Shown here: positions 34,156-37,362 of the stretch, one piece after another | How the letters are laid out: the number at the start of each line of letters is the position of its first letter | Position numbering within the stretch: the first letter of the stretch is position 1 | Source of the DNA: Clostridiales bacterium | Lineage (GTDB): Bacteria; Bacillota; Clostridia; Caldicoprobacterales; DTU083 | Direction of reading: 5' to 3' | DNA: 37,362 bases | Assembly: GCA_012838915.1 (NCBI GenBank) | Contig: DUOI01000110.1 | Location: 1-37,362, forward strand | Made by a program: the position numbers and the translations under genes | Notes under the pieces: generated by a model | What the model was told of the DNA's origin: nothing | Seen by the model: only the letters and a program-made list of their open reading frames with translations | Database searches by the model: none

Positions 34156-34803
34156 TTGCTGAAAAGGTTATGGGGAAGTTACGGTCATTTTATATTTGCT
34201 TTAATTCTTGTTGTCCTTAACCTGATATTCAATTGGCTGACGAAAACTATGGCTCCCAGGTATCAGATGGCTTCCAGCCTGGATCGCTTTATTCCTTTTT
34301 CAAAGGTTTTTATAGTACCCTATTTATTGTGGTTTGCTTATATCATAGTTGTACCAGTCTACCTGGGCCTGAAATCCAAAATACAATTTATACAATTTAA
34401 TACTTTTGTGGTTTTAGGGCAGTTGGTTTGTATGCTCTTTTATTTTATTTATCCAAACGGCCAGAATCTCAGACCGGATGTCATGAGCAACGATATATTT
34501 TCCCGCACAATATTGGCAATCTACAAGAACAATCCCTTTTCCTATACAGCTCCCAGTATTCATGTGTTGTATTCTCTGGCTGCCTACATCGGATTAATGA
34601 AATATGAACCTTTCAACAAGAAAAGGATTCCTTCCGCGCTGTCCTTTATTTTCATGGTGATTTCTATTCTTTCCACACTGTTTATAAAACAGCACACTGT
34701 TACGGATATAATTTTCGGGTTGCTGCTTAGTGCCCTGCTCTATGTGTTGGTTTACAAGTTAATACCCGGAAGAAAAAACTGCAATGCAGTGAAAAGTGTA
34801 TAG
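34156..34803 (+). CDS. PAP2-superfamily membrane phosphatase
   Basis: A 215-residue protein with about six membrane segments and the three PAP2 motifs: GQNLRPD (102-108), PSIH (133-136) and KQHTVTD (178-184), the last two carrying the catalytic histidines (His136, His180) and Asp184. Such enzymes dephosphorylate lipid phosphates, for example phosphatidic acid or undecaprenyl pyrophosphate, at the outer face of the membrane. The motifs fit the phosphatidic acid phosphatase/IPC synthase-like branch more than BacA. The TTG start at 34156 follows GGGGGAT. A LiaF-like gene follows after 27 bases. Confidence 0.88.
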   Translation: MLKRLWGSYGHFIFALILVVLNLIFNWLTKTMAPRYQMASSLDRFIPFSKVFIVPYLLWFAYIIVVPVYLGLKSKIQFIQFNTFVVLGQLVCMLFYFIYPNGQNLRPDVMSNDIFSRTILAIYKNNPFSYTAPSIHVLYSLAAYIGLMKYEPFNKKRIPSALSFIFMVISILSTLFIKQHTVTDIIFGLLLSALLYVLVYKLIPGRKNCNAVKSV

Positions 34804-34830
34804 AAAAAGTTCGGAAAGGGAGGATTATAA

Positions 34831-35340
34831 ATGAAATCATTTTTTTGGGGAATTTTCCTGGTTTCTTCCGGTTTGTTTCTGATGCTGAAACATTATTTTA
34901 ATTGGAATATTCCAACAGCCCGTGTGTTGATCGGCTTGTTTTTGGTATCCCTTGGTTTATCCCTTCTCATTGGAGGTGTTGGTTACAGGGATCAATCCAA
35001 CATTATACTGAACGAGGGCAGGCTGAATATAGGTGCAAGGGCCAAGGATTACAATATTGTATTTGGTCAGGCGGTTCTTGATTTTTCAGACGTCAGCTTG
35101 GAGGAATTGGATAAGAAAATAGAGCTGAATACGGTGTTTGGATCTGCTGAGATAGTGCTGCCTAAAGATGCGGCAGTGGAAATCAAGGCAAATTCCGCAT
35201 TCTCCTCCACCCGGTTGCCTGATGGTACAAATCTATCCTTTGGTGACCGTACCTATTTATCCGATCCGCAGGGAAAGGGACAGGCTGATTTTACGCTGGA
35301 GATAAATACTGTATTTGGCAGCACCGAAATTCGGCACTAA
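34831..35340 (+). CDS. LiaF-like/cell-wall-stress membrane protein
   Basis: A 169-residue protein with two N-terminal membrane segments (about 4-20 and 32-50) and a C-terminal beta-rich domain with repeated short strands: NIVFGQAVLDFSDV, NTVFGSAEIVLPKD and NTVFGSTEIRH. This matches the C-terminal domain of LiaF, the membrane inhibitor of the LiaRS envelope-stress system, and related DUF proteins. No LiaR or LiaS gene is nearby. GGGAGGATTATAA precedes the ATG. It is probably co-transcribed with the PAP2 gene, so a role in membrane or wall homeostasis is reasonable. Confidence 0.78.
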   Translation: MKSFFWGIFLVSSGLFLMLKHYFNWNIPTARVLIGLFLVSLGLSLLIGGVGYRDQSNIILNEGRLNIGARAKDYNIVFGQAVLDFSDVSLEELDKKIELNTVFGSAEIVLPKDAAVEIKANSAFSSTRLPDGTNLSFGDRTYLSDPQGKGQADFTLEINTVFGSTEIRH

Positions 35341-35443: not shown

Positions 35444-37362
35444 ATGAAAAAAAAATTTCTCATACTGTTAATTTGTGTACTTCTCTTAACAGTTACTTTC
35501 AGATATGCACCTGTTTCTGCTTCATCATACAGCATAATCAGAGTAAGATTTCTGTAGGTGACAAGTCATCGATTAACATAAACGTAGATGGTGAATACAT
35601 AATAAAGGAGGAGCCCTCCATTTCAATTCCAAGGGGCTCTTATACCGTATCTGCTTCCGGAAAAAATGTAAGGCTGCGAGGCCCGAATATTGATAAAGTA
35701 ATAGGCGCAACCCTGACTTTTGTAAGGTGTGAATATAAAGGTTCGGGGAATAACCATCTGACTATTAAAGGCACAGAACACGGCAATATCAATTATCTGG
35801 GTGACTTTGTGTTTACTGTAAGTTCAGGGACGTTGAACGTTGTCAATCATGTGCCTTTGGAACAATACCTTTACGGCGTTGTGGCGTACGAGATGAGTGA
35901 CAGCTTTCCCCTGGAGGCACTCAAGGTCCAGGCAGTATGTGCCAGGAGCTATGCAGTAAAGGCCATGTCTTCATCAGGGACCTATGACATAGGTGACAAG
36001 GCCAACCATCAGGTTTATAAAGGATATAATCCATCCTATAAGAATGTAATAAAGGCCGTCGATGCCACTGCAGGTGAAGTACTCAGCTATAAAAACAAGG
36101 TTATCTCCACATACTATTCCGCCTCCAACGGCGGGCAGACAGAGCTTCCCGGAAACATGTGGGGCGGCGGGGCTGAAAAAAACAAGGAATATCCATACCT
36201 TGTTCAAAAGGATGATCCCTACGATCTTGAGAATCCCAGCAGTAAGTATCAGAAAATCTTTGTGCCCAAACAAGTAGAGGGTACAGACTATGATCCCGTA
36301 AACATACCCGGCGATCATGTTGTCAGGGTTGTACATGTGAACGAATTTGCCAACGTCAGAAAAGGCCCGGGTACAAGCTACAGCATCATCGGGCCGGCGC
36401 CTATTAATTCCGTATATGAGTGGCTGGGAACAACAGGTAATTGGAACAAGATTATATATAAAGGAGAAGAAGCATATATCAGCGGCACCTATAGTCAAAA
36501 AGTGTCCAACGGCAGATATTTATACGCAAACAGTATACTGGCCGATATTCAGAACGAGGCCCAGGCTGGTCTTGAATCACAGGGTATAAAAATTTCTTCG
36601 CCAACCGATATAAAAATTATTACTGTAAACAAGCTGGAAAACGGACAGGAGAGGTATCCGGGTACAGGCAGCAGGAATTATGTCACTGCCAAGGCCACTG
36701 CCAATGTTAAATACATAGAAGAAGGCTCATCCGAATTATCCGGCGAGACAAAGGAAGTAAATGTAGTTTTGGAACTGATGAAAAAGTCAAACGGCAAATA
36801 CACCTTGTCTCATGACTACCTTGACTCCGATTTGCGAATGCGAGGCGTGGAACAAGCTGAAAGTGAAGGCGGCTATTATATAACAAACCGCAGATACGGT
36901 CACGGTGTGGGAATGAGTCAGCGGGGAGCCCAGACCATGGCAGGCAAGTATAATATGTCATACCAGGAGATTTTGGACTTTTATTTCGAAGGTACAAAGA
37001 TTATGAAGGTGGACAGCAGTATCCCAAGCCTGCCCGACCCTGCCGATATTCCTACACTTGCCAGTAGTAAATATAATATTGGCTCGAACAGGATAACCGG
37101 TTTGACAACCAACCTGTCTGTAGAAAAGTTTCTTTCCAATCTGACTGTATCCAACGGAACGGTCAGCCTAAGCTCAGCGGGCAAATCAAAAACTTCGGGT
37201 ATAGTAGCAACAGGTGATATCCTGCAGCTTAGAAACAATACAGGCTCCATATACAAGGAATATCCGCTGGTTATTTATGGTGATGTAAATGGTGATGGAA
37301 ATATAACTGTGATAGATTTACTAAGGGTGCAAAAGCATCTGTTAGGAGTCACATCTTTGAAT
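35444..37362 (+). CDS. Secreted SpoIID/LytB-domain protein with SH3b and dockerin-like domains, frameshifted and 3'-truncated
   Basis: A signal peptide (MKKKFLILLICVLLLTVTF) begins at ATG 35444 and that frame stops at TAG 35555-35557. The same protein resumes one frame back, at TCT 35551 (SVGDKSSININVDGEY), and stays open to the window end. One extra T in TTT (35549-35551) would join the two as RVRFSVGDK. The body shows the SpoIID/LytB domain (PLEQYLYGVVAYEMSDSFPL at 35845-35904; GHGVGMSQRGAQ at 36898-36933) with a bacterial SH3 domain inside it (VRVVHVNEFANVRKGPGTSY, about 36319-36378). After a linker domain comes a dockerin-like calcium repeat GDVNGDGNITVIDLLRVQKH from 37279. SpoIID-type proteins cleave or remodel peptidoglycan glycan strands or enhance amidases. 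The frameshift may be real or a sequencing error. Confidence 0.85.

Follow-up and report, generated by a model that had tools for sequence, protein, structure and literature searches.

A SpoIID-type wall enzyme with an inserted SH3 module and an X-dockerin tail is probably held at the cell membrane by a cohesin-like partner

Results

Domain organization of the gene at the contig end

The window, that is, the whole stretch of DNA analysed, is the entire contig G000:C74 (37362 bases). Its last gene encodes, in order, an N-terminal part, the first half of a SpoIID/LytB domain, an SH3b module, the second half of the SpoIID domain, an Ig-like X module and one dockerin repeat (Table 1). Because the window is the whole contig, the gene could not be extended past 37362. 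A PAP2-family membrane protein and a LiaF-like envelope-stress protein are encoded directly upstream on the same strand (34156-35340), and this gene order upstream of the enzyme was also found in the orthologous locus L044.

Table 1. Features of the SpoIID-type gene and its start, in window coordinates
Feature	Position	Strand	Remark
Signal peptide (MKKKFLILLICVLLLTVTFRYAPVSASSYSIIRVRFL, then stop)	35444..35556	+	other frame than the enzyme
SpoIID-SH3-X-dockerin gene	35473..37362	+	open at contig end
SpoIID/LytB domain, first half	35824..36255	+	residues 91-234
Inserted SH3b module	36316..36513	+	residues 255-320; PF08239 (E 2.9e-9), model, Foldseek
SpoIID domain, second half	36793..37008	+	second match of 4rwr, residues 414-485
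GHGVGMSQ motif	36898-36921	+	within SpoIID second half
Ig-like X module	37063..37275	+	just before dockerin; conserved along with it in the X-dockerin alignment A6
First dockerin calcium repeat (GDVNGDGNITVIDLLRVQKHLLG)	37276..37344	+	PF00404, 27.9 bits

The SpoIID/LytB domain was matched by PF08486 over residues 91-179 (E 2.7e-28; 98.9 bits compared to a cut-off of 23) and by TIGR02669 in two stretches, the first covering residues 96-234 (190.2 bits compared to a cut-off of 83.3). The solved SpoIID structure 4rwr also aligned twice on the enzyme, over residues 97-237 and then over its second half. These findings bear out the split domain proposed in the initial annotation, and the GHGVGMSQ motif begins at the base given there (36898). 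Foldseek aligned the AlphaFold model of the whole enzyme, which was of only moderate confidence (pLDDT 74), with 4rwr over 420 columns for the 268-residue target. E113 (codon 35890-35892) was invariant and aligned to the SpoIID catalytic region, and both E113 and the GHG..MSQ motif were conserved in the orthologues.

Between the two SpoIID halves, the SH3_3 profile matched residues 266-313 with 37.4 bits compared to a cut-off of 27 (E 2.9e-9). The enzyme model had a pLDDT of approximately 83-96 in region 255-320, and Foldseek aligned this region with the bacterial SH3 domain 2krs at 1.1 Å over 62 columns. Profile, model and fold comparison agree, and the SH3 position proposed earlier (36310-36490) was correct to within approximately 25 bases. 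The insertion was common to all six aligned orthologues. Outside the orthologue group, three other SpoIID genes matched broadly, and no SH3 insertion was seen by eye in the two for which open frames were found (L175 and L177).

The Dockerin_1 profile matched residues 575-597 above its cut-off of 22.9 bits, confirming a dockerin-type repeat at the window end, the first of two, the number of calcium-binding repeats in a type I dockerin. The window ends before the second calcium repeat, for which a downstream search had been suggested; it is present in the complete orthologues L045 and L046, which carry both dockerin repeats (57/57 profile positions). In its own genome, the X-dockerin match lies at 37063-37359 (E 2.9e-34), the dockerin is the sole Pfam dockerin match, and the last 180 bases of the window had no second occurrence anywhere.

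Cohesin-like partner proteins

Genes for cohesin-like proteins were found downstream of the enzyme orthologues in L045, L046, L163, L164 and L183, which belong to families f1, f47 and f137. Two partner genes directly follow the enzyme gene in L045; the first partner gene also follows directly in L046, where a gene of opposite orientation separates it from the second. The partners are composed of a signal peptide, a single cohesin-like domain, a proline-rich linker, a duplicated 160-aa domain and usually a C-terminal membrane helix, which was present in 74 of 76 partners and absent from the first of the two cohesin genes in the f1 relatives. The 160-aa domain is a tandem duplication (hhalign probability 98.8). 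At L045 3405-3881, the conserved partner domain was seen as a tandem duplication of approximately 60 residues, and no Pfam name was found for it.

The partner family profile aligned with solved cohesins along the entire domain (2vn5, E 9.8e-9). The partner model had a pLDDT of approximately 96 in the cohesin-like domain, and its first 13 Foldseek matches were cohesins or cohesin complexes, with E values from 2.4e-6. The solved cohesins 2xdh and 2jh2 were among the matches, and complement and other beta-sandwich folds were also in the list. PF00963 matched 6 of 36 partner family members at E <=0.001 (best 4.6e-8), and most single partner domains, including the f1 and f47 members scanned, scored under its cut-off. 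When a single partner protein was searched against solved structures with phmmer, no cohesin was found among the weak, mostly low-complexity matches. Family profile and fold comparison together identify the partner domain as a predicted cohesin.

In the genome of the window itself, the cohesin search suggested by the initial annotation gave no match with the Pfam model but did succeed when the neighbour protein of an orthologue was used as the query. The cohesin-like partner gene found in this way (C41:16024-17214, minus strand) lies at the very end of a contig of 17215 bases. In the simplest reading, which we infer from the relatives, an assembly gap of approximately 1.2 kb, as estimated from L045, separates C74 from C41 and would contain the dockerin end and the first cohesin gene. 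Contigs of the relative G003 were broken at almost the same point. In two related genomes the assemblies stop inside the dockerin at closely similar positions, at the window end and at the end of L044.

Judged from these sequences, attachment of the enzyme through a cohesin is a well supported prediction. The idea of anchoring to a scaffold held in part: the downstream membrane partners and the copy in the own genome favour cohesin attachment, and the single cohesin-like domains speak against a multi-cohesin scaffold.

Distribution of the X-dockerin and cohesin pairing

Eighty loci were gathered by similarity to the window protein, mostly via its X-dockerin part, and a locus was scored as adjacent when a cohesin-like or C-domain gene was located <=150 bases downstream on the same strand. 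Adjacency was found in 72 of the 80 loci, a proportion that does not describe every dockerin since the sampling favoured the closest matches to the module of the window. Two more partner genes overlapped by 189-246 bases, and three loci were cut by contig ends. In a second set, with strong X-dockerin matches and no C-domain match, a cohesin-like gene was located directly downstream in approximately 9 of 12 loci.

The X-dockerin module occurred widely among Clostridia and Bacilli, in most cases on SagB-type GH73 glucosaminidases that carry SH3. When the SpoIID proteins were left out, all 65 dockerin proteins scanned matched Dockerin_1, 48 contained SH3_3 and 47 a cadherin-like domain, and their catalytic part was a SagB-type GH73 glucosaminidase (6u0o, E 3.9e-33). 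The SpoIID version, with SpoIID in the place of the glucosaminidase, was rarer. Its combination of SpoIID, SH3 and dockerin, proposed at first for the window protein, was seen in three f1 genomes, three f47 genomes and one f137 genome, and all loci that extended far enough contained two cohesin genes. In two further f137 genomes, the SpoIID-SH3 protein lacked the X module and had another kind of dockerin at its end; cohesin neighbours were absent from the stretch fetched. SpoIID-SH3 proteins with the other dockerin type (GDVNGDGxVNVSDA) were observed at L184 6447-8585 and L185 6153-8567.

The C-domain was present in 33 of 391 genomes in the class sample. Its genome-level co-occurrence with the X-dockerin was modest (odds ratio 3.2, p 0.002) because genus g69 keeps the partner without a recognisable dockerin, and adjacency is the stronger evidence. 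Dockerin and cohesin distances remained correlated once the GH73 distance was taken into account (partial r 0.26, permutation p 0.0005), which is weak evidence for the pairing. Approximately 10 sampled g69 genomes contained the duplicated domain and no X-dockerin match. In one g69 genome (G159, L165 3143-7167), a cohesin-like partner with the duplicated domain was seen beside a GH73 enzyme in which no dockerin could be recognised, so that the partner may serve a different function.

It is unlikely that the dockerin is an orphan, calcium-stabilised and perhaps binding the wall or itself, with generic, non-binding beta-sandwich modules as its cohesin-like neighbours. Single PF00963 matches under the cut-off, the lack of a Pfam cohesin in the own genome and the other beta-sandwich folds in the Foldseek list of the partner are in agreement with such an explanation. 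However, cohesins top that list and the family profile covers the whole domain, adjacency was found in both sets of loci (72/80 and approximately 9/12), and the neighbours vanish when the dockerin type changes.

Reading frame at the gene start

The signal peptide starts with an ATG at 35444 (MKKKFLILLI...) and runs into a stop at approximately 35556. Alignment of the DNA located a break in the assembled reading frame near 35548-35560, between the signal peptide and the enzyme. In the orthologue L044, the same signal peptide was continuous with the enzyme frame. The break is either a genuine one or an error in the metagenome contig, and as the dockerin is truncated and the gene seemingly frame-shifted, the window copy may be a pseudogene or the result of an assembly error. 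The signal peptide and the enzyme being out of frame would fit a decayed gene, frame-shifted at its start and without function, which we regard as quite improbable: the remaining frame is open with its conserved motifs intact, and a single-base error in a metagenome contig would look identical.

Relationship to sporulation SpoIID

The window protein scored 122.5 bits with the sporulation SpoIID model TIGR02870, compared to a cut-off of 234.75 bits, whereas a separate SpoIID in the same genome passed it with 354 bits. These scores agree with a probable role of the window protein outside sporulation. That the gene serves sporulation, as a second SpoIID during engulfment, is very improbable; the SpoIID domain itself and a genome that contains a sporulation SpoIID would be compatible with it, but these model scores and the occurrence of the same docking tail mostly on GH73 wall enzymes argue against it. 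The window protein shares the lytic transglycosylase fold and motifs with sporulation SpoIID (4rwr) and differs from it in the inserted SH3, the X-dockerin tail and the cohesin-like neighbours, besides scoring below the cut-off of the sporulation model. A paralogue in the same genome (G000:C5, L010 4041-6368) was observed to have an uninterrupted SpoIID domain followed by a C-terminal SH3 and three peptidoglycan-binding repeats that are almost identical.

Discussion

Cohesins and dockerins are usually taken to indicate the degradation of plant polymers. Judging from the gene content described here, their most likely function in this case is to anchor wall enzymes that belong to the cell itself. 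We consider it likely that the window enzyme and its partner form an enzyme/receptor pair of their own, in which the receptor keeps the peptidoglycan-cutting enzyme at the membrane, and not a cellulosome. Attachment to the membrane is probable because of the dockerin tail and the membrane protein with a cohesin, whose gene is a neighbour of the enzyme gene in relatives and lies at the end of a contig in the own genome; the link to the membrane would probably be a counterpart of the cellulosome connector that serves a wall enzyme. A cellulosome, with a many-cohesin scaffoldin and many dockerin enzymes, was rejected as there is one dockerin in the genome and the partners have single cohesins.

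Physical binding, activity, and the place and time of action would then be as follows. The gene product is predicted to be a secreted SpoIID-type peptidoglycan lytic transglycosylase, to which the inserted SH3b probably adds an extra wall contact. Its C-terminal X-dockerin, with calcium, would plug into the cohesin-like domain of one or two partners encoded downstream. Bound in this way, the cutting enzyme would be kept at the external side of the membrane, the site at which new glycan strands come out, and SpoIID would cleave glycan strands close to the membrane. The SpoIID pair would be a version of the commoner pair with a SagB-type GH73 glucosaminidase.

Cohesin/dockerin pairs are known outside cellulosomes, for example in glycoside hydrolases of Clostridium perfringens. 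Of the structures matched by the partner model, 2xdh, an Archaeoglobus cohesin, and 2jh2 are solved examples. The pairs described here resemble such non-cellulosomal pairs in having one cohesin and one dockerin, few per genome and without a scaffoldin. They differ in that the dockerin is on peptidoglycan-cutting enzymes and the cohesin is on a dedicated, usually membrane-anchored partner encoded by the adjacent gene.

In S. aureus, SagB and its membrane partner SpdC, an integral membrane protein of the CAAX-protease family, release new peptidoglycan from the membrane (PMC12272431). The commoner pair is alike in logic only, with a SagB-type GH73 enzyme and a membrane partner, and this likeness suggests that strands may be released at the membrane here as well. 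In contrast to SpdC, the partner has a cohesin-like domain and a single C-terminal helix, and the enzyme in the window is a SpoIID. Membership of the window pair in the SagB-SpdC system was ruled out by its SpoIID enzyme and cohesin-like partner.

Dockerin-bearing wall hydrolases in cellulosomes have led to the proposal of a 'lyticome' (PMC6403190). Those hydrolases also carry dockerins, but they dock on multi-enzyme scaffoldins and were proposed to lyse other bacteria; despite that precedent, such a cellulosome-like complex is very improbable here, with one dockerin in the own genome, 0 to 3 dockerin matches in each of nine surveyed genomes, and partners that usually have a membrane helix and contain only one cohesin-like domain each. 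In Christensenellales genomes from cockroaches, dockerin genes were assigned to K06381, the SpoIID orthology group (PMC10266427). The co-annotation of SpoIID and dockerin was noticed there, but in the parts of that study concerned with these genes they are listed among cellulosome components and no partner or wall role is described. No description of an adjacent wall-enzyme/membrane-cohesin pair was found in the literature searched, a scope outside of which most subscription journals lie.

We also put forward, tentatively and at somewhat less than even chances, a general wall-cutting module close to the membrane, shared by Clostridia and some Bacilli: a cohesin membrane protein would present a swappable GH73 or SpoIID enzyme to new peptidoglycan, doing the job of SagB-SpdC via another connector. 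If the proposed pairing is true, dockerin matches in many gut and digester genomes have been miscounted as parts of cellulosomes, and a widespread and apparently unstudied way of localising peptidoglycan hydrolases could be tested, also in cultured species, Roseburia faecis and [Clostridium] fimetarium among them, with two adjacent genes.
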